Origin: a virus
Length of the DNA: 32,292 nucleotides
Strand: one strand, 5' to 3'
IMG/VR virus record: IMGVR_UViG_3300027977_000119
Span: 1 to 32,292 of that record
Shown piece by piece: positions 12,161 to 24,226 of the stretch (positions within the stretch are counted from its first letter, which is position 1; each line of letters opens with the position of its first letter). The notes under the pieces were generated by a model that searched no databases, was not told the origin of the DNA, and was given only the letters and a program-made list of their open reading frames with translations. The position numbers were made by a program, and so were the translations under genes.

Positions 12161-13807
12161 TCACATCACCACATTATAATTCAACTGAGAATATAATACA
12201 TAAAAATTATCAGGGTTTGCCGAATTAATTAACGGAACGTCAGTTAAAGGTTCATTTGACAATGGGGGATTAGATTGCTGCTGCTGAGTATTTGACGTTT
12301 TGATCATTGTCAGTGATGGTTTTGGTTCTGGCAATTGACCAACTTGTTGTGGTTCTCTAAGTGGCATTGATACTTGTGCCGGACTTATCTCTGCAGTTTC
12401 AGTTTTAGATGGTTGCTGTTTCAAATCACTCATATCAACAGCATCTTTCAATTTCATTTCATTCCAATCATAACCCTTTGTTTGTGCCCAAGTTTTGGCT
12501 TGCTGTTGTTGATCTGGAGTCATTTTACTCCAAGCATCCTCAATTCTACCTCTTGCCATAGGATTATTACGATACTGCCATGCCTGCTCAAATTTCTTTT
12601 CCATATCAGGAGATGGAGCAGGAGTTGATGGTGTTTGCTCACCCATCATTGGAGTTTGTGGTTGTGCTACCGACGTTGGAACAGATGCTGTTGGTGCTGG
12701 TTTTGACGATGCGGTGTTTTGTTCTACTTTAGAAGTAGTTGGCGTTAATGTGGGTTTAGTTTCTTTTTGTTTTAAAGCTTCTTCTACAACACTTGCTGCT
12801 TGCTTTTGTTTATTTGGATCCTTACCAAAAATATTCATTCCAAATATTTCTGCTATTTGATCTGCAGCAAATCCAACTCCCATTAAACCTTTAACAAATT
12901 TTCCAGGACCAAATAAACTCAATGCGATCATTACAGTATCTACATATTCTCCATTTTTTGCATTCATAAATGCATTAATGCCCGCAAATAGAGATCCAAA
13001 AATTCCAGGGCCTCTACCTCCAGGTGGTTTTCCTCCTCCACCAGAACCTCTACCAGGAGTTGGAACATTTCTTCCACCAAGACCAGGTATTAAACCAGCA
13101 GCAAGTGCAAGAGGTTTTGCAATCAAAAGTTTAGTTAGTCCTGAAGCAATTGCTCCGATTGTTCTTTTAATTAATGAAAATCCTGCTCTGATTGCAAACA
13201 ATCCACCAACTGCTATTCCAACATTTTTAAGAATATTAAATCGAATTTCATTGAATAATTTTGTATTTCCTTCTTCAGATGCTCTTATTGCTTGAACGGT
13301 TTGATTCGTTAACCATCCTCCAAATAAAATTCCAAGAGCTGCTCCTATTTTACCAAAAACATCATTTACTTGTGGAACTAATCTTTGGACAGGTTCGGAA
13401 ATTGCATTTTGAATTTTTTGTTCTATTTCACTTTCTTTTCCGACTCTAACTTGTCGTTCTGTTAATAATCTTTGTTTTTCTTGATCTGCTCTAGTTTTAC
13501 TTTGGTCTTCCGCAGCATCTTGTTGTAGAAGAAGAGCAATTCCAGAAAGACCTGTTCCCAGTTTTACAATATCAGTTCTTATCGCTTGAAGAGTCGAATT
13601 AAATCCTAAAAGAGCTTGCTCTTGCCCTTTAGATAATTCTGCGTTTTGTGCATCAGTTTGCGTTCTTCTGTTTTCAATATTTTGAAAAATAGATGCATCA
13701 ATAGTAGATTTTTTTAAAAGAGCATTACGAACTTCTTGAGACAAAGGAGACCCCGTGCCTGGATCAACACCTAATCTGCCAACTTTTTCAGGATCTAACT
13801 CAGCCAT
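12161..13807 (-). CDS. Candidate tail tape-measure / hub protein (gp29-like by position)
   Basis: A 548-residue protein. Residues 50-140 are charged and helical. Residues 145-245 hold several hydrophobic helices (FGKIGAALGILFGGWL, GIAVGGLFAIRAGFSLI, LLIAKPLALAAGLIPGLGG). A Gly/Pro-rich linker follows at 245-270, then another hydrophobic stretch (290-315) and a Pro/Gln/Thr-rich C-terminus. Coiled coils mixed with hydrophobic helices and low-complexity linkers are typical of tape-measure proteins, and the length is near T4 gp29 (590). It lies immediately downstream of gp26 and gp51, the place tape-measure genes occupy after G/GT chaperone genes in other phages. Its ATG overlaps the end of gp51 by 8 bp. 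The sequence alone cannot separate a tape measure from another hub protein. Confidence 0.55.
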   Translation of the reverse strand: MAELDPEKVGRLGVDPGTGSPLSQEVRNALLKKSTIDASIFQNIENRRTQTDAQNAELSKGQEQALLGFNSTLQAIRTDIVKLGTGLSGIALLLQQDAAEDQSKTRADQEKQRLLTERQVRVGKESEIEQKIQNAISEPVQRLVPQVNDVFGKIGAALGILFGGWLTNQTVQAIRASEEGNTKLFNEIRFNILKNVGIAVGGLFAIRAGFSLIKRTIGAIASGLTKLLIAKPLALAAGLIPGLGGRNVPTPGRGSGGGGKPPGGRGPGIFGSLFAGINAFMNAKNGEYVDTVMIALSLFGPGKFVKGLMGVGFAADQIAEIFGMNIFGKDPNKQKQAASVVEEALKQKETKPTLTPTTSKVEQNTASSKPAPTASVPTSVAQPQTPMMGEQTPSTPAPSPDMEKKFEQAWQYRNNPMARGRIEDAWSKMTPDQQQQAKTWAQTKGYDWNEMKLKDAVDMSDLKQQPSKTETAEISPAQVSMPLREPQQVGQLPEPKPSLTMIKTSNTQQQQSNPPLSNEPLTDVPLINSANPDNFYVLYSQLNYNVVM

Positions 13808-13973
13808 TTGATTGGTTCTTTAAGTTTTCTTCTTCAATATATTGTTTGAGAAGAGCAATATAAATTTCACGCTCCCAAGGTATCATATTTTCTATTTCTG
13901 TCAATGAATATTTATGATGCTGAACTAAGGAAAAATTTGTTTTATAATATGACTCAAGACTTTCATGAGCCAT
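13800..13973 (-). CDS. 51: Small gp51-like baseplate hub assembly protein, or frameshifted C-terminal half of a tail chaperone
   Basis: A 57-residue frame starting MAHESLESYYKTNFSL and continuing HHKYSLTEIENMIPWERE. The YSLxEIxxMxPWE pattern recalls the T half of phage tail assembly chaperones (lambda GT type) and the small protein annotated as gp51 in relatives. The ATG lies 2 bp after the gp26 stop codon. The frame is the -1 frame relative to gp26, so it may also be made as a gp26 fusion (see the recoding signal). The end overlaps the next gene by 8 bp. T4 gp51 is much longer (249 residues), so the name rests mainly on gene order 26-51 and is tentative. Confidence 0.65.
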   Translation of the reverse strand: MAHESLESYYKTNFSLVQHHKYSLTEIENMIPWEREIYIALLKQYIEEENLKNQSNG

Positions 13974-14003
13974 CCCTAAGCGAAAAAACTTGATAATCCC
14001 TCC
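13951..14003 (-). promoter_or_regulatory. Putative programmed -1 frameshift signal joining gp26 to gp51
   Basis: On the coding (minus) strand a GGAGGG box (14003-13998) is followed after 9 nt by the slippery heptamer TTTTTTC (13988-13982), phased T TTT TTC in the gp26 frame. The gp26 stop TAG comes two codons later. A 6-bp stem (13971-13966 with 13956-13951, one G-U pair, 9-nt loop) starts 10 nt after the heptamer. A -1 slip reads CGC TTA GGG ATG GCT and continues in the gp51 frame. The predicted fusion is 298 residues: 238 from gp26, RLG, and 57 from gp51. The spaced Shine-Dalgarno-like box resembles the stimulator of the E. coli dnaX frameshift. Confidence 0.6.
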
Positions 14004-14695
14004 AGCAATACTTCGCTTTCAACTTCAGTATTTGGATTCTTAATCTTAAGAGTATGAGAAAGTTTAGGCATTGTAGAGAAAAAATTCTCAACTTGTTTAA
14101 ATTGCTTCGAACTTAATTGTTCAATAAATTCTGACAATTCTTTTTTCGTGCAATCAGATGCAGACCAAGATTCTTCTTCATTATAAACTTGCTCCATACA
14201 AGAAACAATCAAACTGAATGTATCATCCACACTCATATTAAAATCATTCCCAAAATTGGATTTAATAAATTCATTCATTGATGGATATTTCATTCTCAAA
14301 GTCAAATCATCATCAAGTTTAATATCTCTTGAATGATTTTCATTAACACTAATTTCAATATCATCAAGATTAATACTGACTGGAACTTGAGTTTTTCCAT
14401 CATCAGGGCATGTAATTAAAACATCAACTGTTTCTCCTACAGACTTTCCACGAATGTTAAGAAACAAATATTCAATATCAAAAGTTGCAAGTTGTTCAAC
14501 TTTAATTCCCCTAGTTAAAATGCAATTATTGATTACAGTTTTAACCGCTTCTGCAATTTGCTTTGGATCTTCACTCTCCATTGCAATAATAAGAATTTTT
14601 TCTTCTTTTACAAGAAATGGGCGATATTTAATTTCCTTTTTAAGAGATGGAATTTCTAAAGAATAAGAAGGAGTTGCAATCTTAGGTAATGACAT
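13976..14695 (-). CDS. 26: Baseplate hub subunit / tail assembly protein gp26
   Basis: A 239-residue protein starting MSLPKIATPSYSLEIPSLKKEIKYRPFLVKEEK. This opening is the conserved N-terminus of the T4-type baseplate protein family (gp26), followed by the usual NNCI, IEYLFLNIRGKSVGE and LTLRMKYPSMNEF blocks. T4 gp26 is 208 residues. The ATG at 14693-14695 is preferred over an in-frame TTG two codons upstream because it matches family starts. A GATAAATA late box lies 24 bp upstream. It is followed by gp51 in the same order as in T4 (26-51). Its 3' end carries the elements of a -1 frameshift. In T4 gp26 is needed for hub assembly; a chaperone role is inferred. Confidence 0.85.
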   Translation of the reverse strand: MSLPKIATPSYSLEIPSLKKEIKYRPFLVKEEKILIIAMESEDPKQIAEAVKTVINNCILTRGIKVEQLATFDIEYLFLNIRGKSVGETVDVLITCPDDGKTQVPVSINLDDIEISVNENHSRDIKLDDDLTLRMKYPSMNEFIKSNFGNDFNMSVDDTFSLIVSCMEQVYNEEESWSASDCTKKELSEFIEQLSSKQFKQVENFFSTMPKLSHTLKIKNPNTEVESEVLLEGLSSFFA

Positions 14696-14719
14696 TTTCA
14701 ATCACAAATATGATGAAAT

Positions 14720-14727
14720 TATTTATC
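14720..14727 (-). promoter_or_regulatory. T4-type late promoter GATAAATA for gp26
   Basis: GATAAATA on the minus strand matches the NATAAATA consensus. The TAA stop of gp54 (14723-14725) is embedded in it. The gp26 ATG is 24 bp downstream, so a late start would place a very short leader before gp26, gp51 and the tail genes. Confidence 0.6.
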
Positions 14728-15532
14728 TGTTATTCTGAGATCCGTAAAGTGACTCCGTTAAGGTTTGATTTATTGGAAATAATTCAACGCCGTTTGATGG
14801 TATAGATCCGGGAGATCTTGGAACTAATCTAGGTTTTGGTTGAGATACTGGTTGTGGTTGAGGTTGAGAAGGAAGTTTATTATTGTCATCATTTCTATTA
14901 TAATCCACACTAAAAGATCTTCCAATTACATAACGATCAATTTTAAATGTCACCTGCATTTTCAATACATCAGATTGACCATAAGAAACCGGTATAGATG
15001 AAATATTATATGGATATAATCCAACAAAAGTATATTCTATTTCTCTTTGATAATCACGATCAAATTTAATGATTCTTGTTCGGTTTGATTTATAATATTC
15101 TGGATATTGCATTCTTATAAAGTAACCCTCATCAACGTTCATGTTGATTGGAAGGTTATTGCCGTTAATTGGATTTGATGATCCACTTGCAATGAATTCC
15201 ATCCAATGCTCTAAAAATTTCAATGTATTGTAATTATTATCAACATAAAACTCAAGACTTATATCCTGATAAATTCTTCTGTGAGCAAACGTTTGTGTGA
15301 TTCCAGTATAATTTCCAGGAACATCTACAGTTGCAAATTGTGATGTTGGTAAAACTGCATTATGGCACAGAAGACCAGCATCCTCAGTAACAAATCTTGA
15401 TGATACTCCTCTGGGTCTTAAATAACTCATCAGTTGTCCAGAAAGTCCACCAAACTTAACTTCATAATGAGAAGTTTGTGCTAGATTTGTAAATAGTGGT
15501 TTGATATCTGATATTCTGCGTGGTAACGCCAC
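14723..15532 (-). CDS. 54: Baseplate tail tube initiator gp54
   Basis: A 269-residue protein read from a GTG start (15530-15532): ALPRRISDIKPLFTNLAQTS, then HYEVKFGGLSGQLMSYL. The blocks NAVLPTSQFATVDVPGNYTG, TFAHRRIYQDISLEFYVDN, FLEHWMEFIA and FVGLYPYNISSIPVSYG are typical of the tail-tube-like fold shared by gp54, gp48 and gp19. T4 gp54 is 320 residues. The C-terminal 45 residues are Pro/Gln-rich and probably flexible. In the virion gp54 sits on gp48 and starts polymerisation of the tail tube. The upstream CTAAATA box is 33 bp from the GTG. The GTG start is chosen because no ATG lies upstream before the intergenic region. Confidence 0.8.
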   Translation of the reverse strand: MALPRRISDIKPLFTNLAQTSHYEVKFGGLSGQLMSYLRPRGVSSRFVTEDAGLLCHNAVLPTSQFATVDVPGNYTGITQTFAHRRIYQDISLEFYVDNNYNTLKFLEHWMEFIASGSSNPINGNNLPINMNVDEGYFIRMQYPEYYKSNRTRIIKFDRDYQREIEYTFVGLYPYNISSIPVSYGQSDVLKMQVTFKIDRYVIGRSFSVDYNRNDDNNKLPSQPQPQPVSQPKPRLVPRSPGSIPSNGVELFPINQTLTESLYGSQNNR

Positions 15533-19563: not shown

Positions 19564-20146
19564 TGATAATTTCCCGCAAAATACGTTTGAATTGGAATAT
19601 GTCAGTATTTAGAAAAGGAGAGTATTTTGAAATTTTTAAACTTATGGTTTCCCACACTGGGTCTAGAAGTTTCTTATCAAACCTTTTACTGAACTGAAAT
19701 ATTCTATCATAAATTACCAGAGTTTCCAAGCAGATTTTACCACTTAAAAAACCTTTTAGAATTGGCGGATGTCCTTTGGAGCAGTTCAAGGCATCCTCTA
19801 ATTTTGTCTCCGAGAACAATTCGTTGCTTTGTTCCTTGAATAAGTAAGTTAAACTCTGCTGTCGTTTCATCCACTCTTGGTAGGTTCTTTCTCCAGAATT
19901 TATAACCTGACCTATCCATAAATTTCCCGGTGTGTCTGTTGCTACAAAGTTTGATACAAGAAAATCTACAACTTCTTTGTCAGAATACTTTCTTGAGGTC
20001 TTCTCGAACCAATACTTATCGGACCTTTTATTAAAAGAAGTCAGTGTTGCTCTGACTTTCTTGTTATATTTAAAGTAATCGTATTTTGGATTGGTAAAGT
20101 GTGATTTTAACGAAAGATAATTTTGATAAACTTCAAATGGACTCAT
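19556..20146 (-). CDS. 59: Helicase loader gp59
   Basis: A 196-residue protein starting MSPFEVYQNYLSLKSHFTNP. It shares with T4 gp59 (217 residues) the order YxxYLxxKxHF, KYDYFKYN, RSDKYWFEKTSRKYSDKEVV, FLVSNFVAT, a middle LFKEQ segment and the C-terminal FDKKLLDPVWETISLKISKY block. In T4 it binds forks and gp32-coated DNA and loads the gp41 helicase. Its ATG overlaps the gp33 stop (ATGA) and it is followed by the DUF1825-like gene and gp32, a T4-like neighbourhood. Confidence 0.9.
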   Translation of the reverse strand: MSPFEVYQNYLSLKSHFTNPKYDYFKYNKKVRATLTSFNKRSDKYWFEKTSRKYSDKEVVDFLVSNFVATDTPGNLWIGQVINSGERTYQEWMKRQQSLTYLFKEQSNELFSETKLEDALNCSKGHPPILKGFLSGKICLETLVIYDRIFQFSKRFDKKLLDPVWETISLKISKYSPFLNTDIFQFKRILREIINE

Positions 20147-20403
20147 AGGGGAAGTTTTGCCCGTGAGGTGCGTTTCATAAAGTTCAAACTAATCGCATCA
20201 TACTTGAGTTTTTCTTTGAGTGGTTTTGAAATCAGTTTTGTGACCGACTCCACTTCAAGATTATTAATTTCACAATAATGACAGATTGCGTCAATGTAAT
20301 TAAAGTTTTCCTCAATCACAATTTTCTCTATCTCTAGAGCAAACTTTGAGGGAGTCAGAAACTTATTTTCTATAACTTGTTCTAGTTCTTTATTGGGTTC
20401 CAT
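20143..20403 (-). CDS. 33: Late transcription coactivator gp33
   Basis: An 86-residue protein. An upstream in-frame start exists (20502), but it would overlap the nuclease gene by more than 100 bp. The ATG at 20401-20403 (MEPNKELEQVIENKFLTPSK) gives a 14-bp overlap and a size close to T4 gp33 (112). The core FALEIEKIVIEENFNYIDAI, HYCEINNLEVE and hydrophobic C-terminus parallel T4 gp33 (IEKMVEEFGMSYLEA and so on). In T4 gp33 bridges RNA polymerase and the sliding clamp to activate late promoters, matching the many late boxes here. It is coupled to gp59 by ATGA. Confidence 0.8.
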   Translation of the reverse strand: MEPNKELEQVIENKFLTPSKFALEIEKIVIEENFNYIDAICHYCEINNLEVESVTKLISKPLKEKLKYDAISLNFMKRTSRAKLPL

Positions 20404-21070
20404 ATTCTGCGAGTTTGTCTCTAACAAATGTTCTAATATATTCGGTAAGTAGTTTGAGATACTTTGATTTGTCTCTTTCTTCATAAACAACGCATTCTCC
20501 ATTTTCGCAAGACATAATGATTACAAGTTTTTTAATTGGAATACCAGTGAGTTCATAGAACATTGCACCGTATGCCATACACTGAACAAAATAGTGGTCT
20601 ATCCATTCACGGGGTTTGGGCTTTTTAGAAGTCTTAAAGTCAATTATTGCTAATTCACCATTATGCTCTGCAATTGCATCCACAGTTCCTGCAATACCTA
20701 ATTGCTTACTATATAGGGAACCTTCAAGAGCGTAGATATTATTTATACGATTGAGTTCCGTTTTCGCAATCTTAAAAAGAAAATCCGGAAGCGGCGGAAC
20801 AGGCGGGAGATCCTTATTATAAAGATAATTTTCCACGAGAGAATGCATATCCGTGCCACGATTCGTAGCCGCTTTAGTAATTTTCTGTGCTTCCTCTTCA
20901 CCGACCTTTTTACGCCACTTGACGAATATTTCACGATTAAAATGACTCGTAACAGAAGTGATTGAAACTAGTTTAAGAAGTTCTTCATCATCAGGCACTT
21001 TATAATACCTGACTCCATCGATTGTCTCACGCTCCAACTTTGGGAGTTCAATATCAATATGATTAAACAT
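20390..21070 (-). CDS. PD-(D/E)XK exonuclease (Cas4/RecB-like, MGME1-like)
   Basis: A 226-residue protein. Motifs in order: SITSVTSHF (35-44), RGTDMHSLVE with H76, GIAGTVDAIAEHNGELAIIDFKTSKK (125-150) with D131, D144 and K146, and HYFVQCMAYGAM with Q163. This is the full catalytic signature of the PD-(D/E)XK exonucleases, with the H-D-DxK-Q pattern. Such genes sit beside gp33 and gp59 in related cyanophages. A role in recombination or host DNA processing is inferred. It follows the homing endonuclease by a 1-bp TAATG overlap, so it may be translated through coupling. Confidence 0.85.
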   Translation of the reverse strand: MFNHIDIELPKLERETIDGVRYYKVPDDEELLKLVSITSVTSHFNREIFVKWRKKVGEEEAQKITKAATNRGTDMHSLVENYLYNKDLPPVPPLPDFLFKIAKTELNRINNIYALEGSLYSKQLGIAGTVDAIAEHNGELAIIDFKTSKKPKPREWIDHYFVQCMAYGAMFYELTGIPIKKLVIIMSCENGECVVYEERDKSKYLKLLTEYIRTFVRDKLAEYGTQ

Positions 21071-21795
21071 TAAGACCTCACTCTCCCTTTATTATAACCC
21101 ATAGGTATAGATTCGTCAATTGTTATAAGTTTTTCTTCAATACCATTATTAATCCAAAATCTTTTAGGGCGTTTTTTTGCCCTTTCTTTTAATTTTTCAA
21201 TGGTTTCGGGCGAATGCTTTTTGCCAAACATAGGGTTATTTTCACCAGAAATGTCGTGATGATTTTCACTGATTTTTTTTCTGGTTTCTTCAGAAAGAAT
21301 TTTGCCAAGATTTAATTGGCGAATTTTTTCTCTTGTTCCTTCACTTACTTCCCTACCAACTAACCAAGGCTTTGGTTTCCCTTTTGAGGAATCACTCATT
21401 TTTTTCCTTGTTTCTTCACTATGTTTTTTACCATACATACCAACTTTTTTATCTTTATGAAGTTGTTTTACTCGTTCAGAACATTCTTGACGATATTCTT
21501 CACTCGCTTCCCAACCAAAAATACCATCCCCACCATCAGTTAAGTTATATCCACTAGGGACCTTTGTATTATATTGTTTTATGTAATATTGTTCAAGTTC
21601 ATATGCTCTTTCGGCACTTTCAACTTCTTCAACTAATTGAATAAAAAACTTTTCTTGTCCATATTTTTGAATTGCTTCTGTTAGAATGAATCCCCTTTTA
21701 ATATGTTGTGAAAATCTTTCCTCAAGGGAAAATTTAGTTATACCAACATATTGTTTTTTATTTTCAATATTAGTAATTAAATATACTTTATACAT
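21070..21795 (-). CDS. GIY-YIG homing endonuclease with NUMOD3 repeats
   Basis: A 241-residue protein. Residues 1-95 form a GIY-YIG-type nuclease domain: KVYLITN followed by YVGIT, SLEERFSQHI, an AIQKYG/EKF block and a YELEQYYIKQYNT block ending GYNLTDGG. Residues 115-215 hold several NUMOD3-type DNA-binding repeats: YGKKHSEETRKKM, LSEETRKKISE and GENNPMFGKKHSPET. This is the layout of free-standing Seg-type endonucleases of T4-like phages. It separates phoH from the exonuclease gene and seems an insertion. Its ATG lies directly next to a 16-bp inverted repeat with a late promoter in the loop (see that entry). No good ribosome binding site is visible. Confidence 0.9.
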   Translation of the reverse strand: MYKVYLITNIENKKQYVGITKFSLEERFSQHIKRGFILTEAIQKYGQEKFFIQLVEEVESAERAYELEQYYIKQYNTKVPSGYNLTDGGDGIFGWEASEEYRQECSERVKQLHKDKKVGMYGKKHSEETRKKMSDSSKGKPKPWLVGREVSEGTREKIRQLNLGKILSEETRKKISENHHDISGENNPMFGKKHSPETIEKLKERAKKRPKRFWINNGIEEKLITIDESIPMGYNKGRVRS

Positions 21796-24115: not shown

Positions 24116-24173
24116 TGGTTTGCTCCTTTACTTTATGGGTATTGGTGCGTTCCTTCCCTAATTGGTAATTCCG

Positions 24174-24195
24174 TTCGCTATTTGGGAATAGCGAA
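24174..24195. other. Perfect inverted repeat in the leader of the micro-ORF
   Basis: TTCGCTATT (24174-24182) and AATAGCGAA (24187-24195) form a perfect 9-bp stem with a 4-nt loop. No T-tract follows on either strand. It lies about 60 bp upstream of the micro-ORF start. It may be an RNA leader structure or a protein-binding palindrome. Confidence 0.6.
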
Positions 24196-24226
24196 TGAAC
24201 GTAATGTATATATTACCATAAAACTC

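Follow-up and report, generated by a model that had tools for sequence, protein, structure and literature searches.

The stretch of DNA analysed here, referred to below as the window, comes from a T4-like cyanophage and is a fragmentary virus record of 32 kb. It is close to Synechococcus phage S-SRM01 (Kyanoviridae): a 5-kb query is 91.6% identical to that phage at the nucleotide level across 87% of its length. On the minus strand the gene of a tail tube-like protein (14723-15532) is followed by gp26, by gp51 in the -1 frame, and then by the genes of a 548-aa protein and of a 636-aa protein that has an M23 peptidase domain. Gp26 (13976-14695) is 239 aa long and starts with the ATG at 14695; an in-frame TTG is also present at 14701. 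It matches PF12322, the T4 gp26 family, with 254 bits (curated cut-off 24.5; E 1.3e-75) and phrog_150 with an E value of 1.4e-80, and would represent the short form of a tail assembly chaperone (TAC-N). In the conventional annotation gp51 (13800-13973) runs from the ATG at 13973 for 57 aa to the TGA at 13802-13800. The gene of the 548-aa protein (12161-13807) starts within the end of gp51, the overlap being 8 nt (ATGGCTGA). The fragment holds one copy of gp26, and the C-terminal part is present in it only as the -1 open reading frame; a second complete gene encoding the fused N- and C-terminal parts, as in T4, is not found in these 32 kb.

Elsewhere in the window, small phage genes surround a glutamine riboswitch (Rfam RF01739, 40.6 bits) at 24144-24203, minus strand. 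When the longest open reading frames are taken, that of a late promoter transcriptional regulator (20143-20502) and the gene of a recombination exonuclease (20390-21070), both on the minus strand, share 113 nt and are read in different frames. As the profile match of the regulator begins only at residue 43, its true start may be later. The gene of a homing endonuclease with GIY-YIG-type matches (21070-21795, minus strand) adjoins that of the exonuclease.

The 3' end of gp26 reads AG T TTT TTC GCT TAG, so that the slippery heptamer T TTT TTC (13982-13988, minus strand) is in the X XXY YYZ phase, and one sense codon (GCT) separates it from the zero-frame stop TAG (13976-13978). A GGAGGG box (13998-14003), a putative Shine-Dalgarno (SD)-like stimulator, lies 9 nt upstream of the heptamer. 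A stem of 8 bp, including one G-U pair, starts 8 nt past the heptamer, with its 5' arm (AUGGCUCA) at 13966-13973 and its 3' arm (UGAGUCAU) at 13949-13956. In the -1 frame, no stop codon occurs between a point upstream of the heptamer and the end of gp51. Slippage would append 60 residues, RLGMAHES...QSNG (TAC-C; 13800-13982 with the stop), after ...SSFF; this extension matches phrog_634 (E 2e-30). The predicted fusion, read from the gp26 ATG, has 298 aa, of which 238 come from gp26 and 60 from the extension, and its junction reads ...SSFFRLGMAHESLESYYK. Its specific tryptic peptides would be one ending in ...LLEGLSSFFR (the short form ends in ...SSFFA) and LGMAHESLESYYK. The first-pass annotation had described the heptamer and its phase at the gp26 stop, the box 9 nt upstream, gp51 in the -1 frame and a 298-residue fusion, and each of these stands. 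The stem, which it had given as 6 bp at a distance of 10 nt, is also present, those 6 bp being the inner part of the 8-bp stem.

The window contains 16 copies of TTTTTTC where 24 are expected, and therefore the motif by itself proves nothing; its rarity was rejected as evidence. The whole window has 40 open frames that reach 100 codons or more, and only one of them ends in an in-phase heptamer. Judged from the sequences compared, it is the conservation of the heptamer across relatives, unlike the count of the motif, that is decisive for the signal. Loci of gp26 were gathered from IMG/VR, GTDB contigs and GenBank phages, and 270 of these related loci were usable. TTTTTTN lies in phase, 0-2 codons ahead of the gp26 stop, in 268 of them (TTTTTTC in 214, TTTTTTA in 28, TTTTTTT in 25 and TTTTTTG in 1). 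The phages added by hand, namely Rhizobium IG49 and RHph_I9, Ochrobactrum OC, Pelagibacter HTVC008M and Vibrio EniLVp02, are concordant. Relatives lacking the heptamer, which the first-pass annotation had named as evidence against a frameshift, do exist alongside these 268: Vibrio K445, D533 and K452 and Ackermannviridae-like phages (L095, L096, L280, L286 and L287) have CTT TTT, CTT TTC or GTT TTT instead, with gp51 in the -1 frame and a TAATG stop-start overlap.

The first-pass annotation had also proposed aligning the junction of relatives, and the heptamer phase, the -1 frame and the SD-like box are all widely kept. In a diverged set of 87 representatives (less than 85% amino acid identity), the -1 frame is open for 55-68 codons beyond the gp26 stop without exception. 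The first Phe codon of the slip site is TTT in 87/87, as compared with 67% TTT elsewhere, and the base before it, the third base of the preceding codon, is T in all representatives. For the second Phe the codon used is TTC in 68/78, whereas elsewhere TTC makes up 33% and TTT is preferred. The codon between the slip site and the stop varies in its zero-frame residue (mostly G, A, E, V or D), and its -1 reading is Arg in 59/67. As an internal control, another conserved FF of gp26 makes a heptamer in just 4/80. The p values of these codon tests, binomial and Fisher, are naive in that they treat related sequences as independent, and because the counts come from related sequences they are indicative only.

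Gp26 of the window contains another T TTT TTC that is likewise in phase (14078-14084, minus strand; AAT TTT TTC TCT, the FF before TMPKL). The -1 frame closes a few codons after it, and the heptamer is rarely kept by relatives (4/80).

The proposed stimulators were compared in the same representatives. Pairing with the anti-SD sequence at or below -5 kcal/mol is found in 76% of the 87 representatives in the 12-nt window that ends 6 nt before the heptamer (-6 to -18); in none of the other windows scanned does the figure exceed 13%. The conserved Glu-Gly codons favour the box beyond the need for these amino acids (GAG codon bias, p=1e-10, a naive value in which kinship is ignored). As an SD of gp51 itself, GGAGGG was rejected, the gp51 ATG being 24 nt downstream of it. 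The stem of the window is modest (minimum free energy -10.1 kcal/mol, z -1.85). Among the representatives, folding relative to shuffles has a mean z of -1.96 in the 60 nt downstream of the heptamer and of -0.27 in the next 60 nt, which served as a control; the stem is not universal, z being above -1 in 25%. Pairing of the stem reaches 88.5% in the clade of the window, where 15 cells show two-sided compensation. The percentage paired, the two-sided cells and the covariation score exceed those of all shuffles and slides, and the count of pairs with two-sided change in this clade is not above the shuffles. In the S-PM2 clade the stem is in a different register and is 93.6% paired. A single universal register was therefore rejected, that of the window being found in 28/87 (at least 7 of the 8 inner pairs), and the stems are common but lineage-specific. 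On this comparative footing, the synonymous sites of the slip site, the box complementary to the anti-SD and the downstream stem are probably all under selection.

These observations make it very probable that gp26 and gp51 constitute one tail assembly chaperone gene, which is expressed as a short form and, by a -1 frameshift, as a long form. The first-pass annotation had proposed both the frameshift and the role of the two genes as a missing tail chaperone pair, and the comparative evidence supports it in both. The process can be pictured as follows. Most ribosomes would read gp26 to its TAG and release the short form. A minority would pause on T TTT TTC, helped by pairing of the upstream GGAGGG with the 3' end of the 16S rRNA and by the downstream stem-loop. 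The Phe-tRNAs in the P and A sites would then slip back by one base, and reading would go on into gp51 to give the 298-aa long form (TAC-NC). Both forms may, like lambda gpG/gpGT, cover the tape-measure protein, whose gene comes next, and bring in subunits of the tail tube. We infer slippage during infection, how often it happens and the role as a chaperone; a literature search found no proteomic or ribosome-profiling evidence for the fusion.

The relation to T4 is apparent from profile comparisons. T4 gp51 and the profile of the predicted fusion are colinear from one end to the other (227 columns, E 1e-10), the gp51 extension being matched to the C terminus of the T4 protein. The gp26 profile matches T4 gp26 (E 2e-17), which in turn matches the gp26 part only. 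The N-terminal domain of T4 gp51 is paralogous to T4 gp26 (E 2e-6). It follows from this alignment and this paralogy that T4 encodes the short and long forms separately. Phage IME13 has the gene order of T4 and separate genes. Thus, most of the sampled T4-like lineages appear to use a frameshift, and T4 and IME13 appear to use separate genes. Gp51 of the window also matches positions 227-278 of the 282 in the phrog_150 profile, which therefore spans the fusion. A sequence search for a relative of gp26 with a solved structure found none. The AlphaFold model of gp26 alone has a pLDDT of 88, and a fold search of a viral library returned gp26 relatives. The PDB match of highest probability among those listed is the HK97 tail assembly chaperone gp13 (2OB9), a weak one (probability 0.72, E about 1.2-1.3) that superimposes with an rmsd of 2.5 Å over 62 columns. 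This weak resemblance of the predicted fold is suggestive only.

The T4 proteins gp26 and gp51 appear in the literature as chaperones of hub assembly; gp51 is essential and does not occur in the particle (PMC3004832). The frameshift might accordingly be real and serve hub assembly, with gp26 and gp51 acting only as assembly factors of the baseplate hub and not as chaperones of the tape measure, a reading that we regard as unlikely. The position of the genes before a tape-measure candidate, the production of short and long forms by a -1 frameshift and the weak fold match to HK97 gp13 speak against it, as does the assignment of these proteins as TACs in published accounts (PMC10885494, PMC12846349). 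Moreover, gp29, the tape measure of T4, is itself a hub protein, and therefore the two views largely coincide. The description of the T4 proteins as hub chaperones is compatible with a role as tail chaperones.

It is very unlikely that gp51 is a small gene in its own right, with translation starting at an ATG of its own or resuming by coupled re-initiation once gp26 has terminated. An ATG does lie just past the gp26 stop in the window, and the commonest arrangement has the gp51 ATG 5 nt past the first base of that stop codon. Before +30 nt, however, 38 of the 87 representatives have no in-frame gp51 ATG and 23 have no ATG, GTG or TTG at all, so that only a frameshift could make gp51 there. Where gp51 ATGs are present they lack an SD (mean -0.54 kcal/mol, 2% strong, weaker than random), whereas the SD of gp26 and of the next gene is about -3.2 kcal/mol (strong in 36% and 28%, respectively). 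GenBank entries often have gp51 as a separate CDS, which would agree with a start of its own, yet the start positions are inconsistent or the gene is unannotated. The TAATG overlaps of the Vibrio K445-type relatives would also suit re-initiation, but the slippery phase and the synonymous sites would be left unexplained, and selection acts on the -1 frame already ahead of the ATG, at the codon read as Arg.

Slippage of the RNA polymerase on the T run, by which a single U inserted in some mRNAs would yield the same fusion, is scarcely probable at all, for although a T6 run is present, and T7 in some relatives, the preference for TTC as the second Phe codon keeps the run short, T TTT TTA occurs too, and an SD-like box and a stem are stimulators of ribosomes.

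The frameshift site had been placed by the first-pass annotation upstream of a tape-measure candidate. The 548-aa gene is indeed next by position, and it is this position, not sequence similarity, that makes its product a candidate tape measure: BLASTP against T4 gp29 gave no significant similarity, the protein has no PHROG match and few phage homologues, and no strongly hydrophobic 19-residue segment was found in it. In HTVC008M, the large gene one small open reading frame past gp51 is annotated as a putative tape measure. In most representatives the gp51 stop and the start of the next gene overlap, by -8, -1, -4 or -11 nt in 51/87, and such an arrangement allows translational coupling of gp51 to that gene. 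One may imagine a relay, which we consider rather doubtful, in which the frameshifted ribosomes terminate at the gp51 stop and re-initiate at the overlapping start of the tape-measure gene. The rate of frameshifting would then set the supply of both the long chaperone and the tape measure, and gp26, gp51 and the tape-measure gene would be linked in translation.

The arrangement has several parallels. In phage lambda, gpG and gpGT are the frameshift-made forms of the chaperone of the tape measure, and the slippery sequence is G GGA AAG. Here the heptamer is T TTT TTC, its stimulators are an SD-like box and a stem, and the likeness to lambda comes without demonstrated sequence similarity. The -1 signal of Escherichia coli dnaX consists of an upstream SD-like box, the slippery heptamer A AAA AAG and a downstream stem-loop; this three-part layout is common to both, whereas the gene and the heptamer differ. 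The T4 genes are homologous to those of the window, and in T4 and IME13 the long form has a gene of its own, located on the other strand, and needs no frameshift.

Vladimirov, Gautam and Davidson (Virology 566:9-15, 2022) reportedly identified the TAC genes of T4-like phages; frameshifting is said to be conserved in several T4-like groups, and T4 to make the two forms from genes 26 and 51. In that work the T4-like TACs are reportedly gp26/gp51 homologues with a -1 frameshift to TAC-NC outside the group of T4 and a poly-T signal like the present one, and nothing categorical differs. The chaperone pair, offered in the first-pass annotation as a departure from the usual view of T4-like phages, has thus been in print since 2022, and that reading is correct but not new. 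Two later papers cite the 2022 Virology study: one describes some T4-like phages in which the short gene is accompanied by a separate gene for the fused long form (PMC10885494), and the other poly-T -1 frameshift signals in the TAC-N genes of T4-like phages (PMC12846349). According to the latter, TAC-N of Pseudomonas phage Adele (Vandenendeviridae) has a -1 frameshift at a conserved poly-T motif, GTTTTT, before the tape measure (PMC12846349). The poly-T frameshift in TAC-N is alike in Adele and here; the motif and the phage family differ.

By its sequence, the locus is clearly a previously unannotated case of a T4-like chaperone predicted to be made by frameshifting. Since the concept has been published, the gain lies in confirmation and breadth. 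The comparison adds a conserved signal of three parts, consisting of an SD-like box, T TTT TTN and a lineage-specific stem, and points to a separate T4 gene standing in for frameshifting. The gp51 of cyanophages, which is a separate gene in many GenBank records and missing or truncated in others, would be the C-terminal domain of the predicted frameshift product, and its annotation would have to be corrected across the Kyanoviridae and related T4-like phages.
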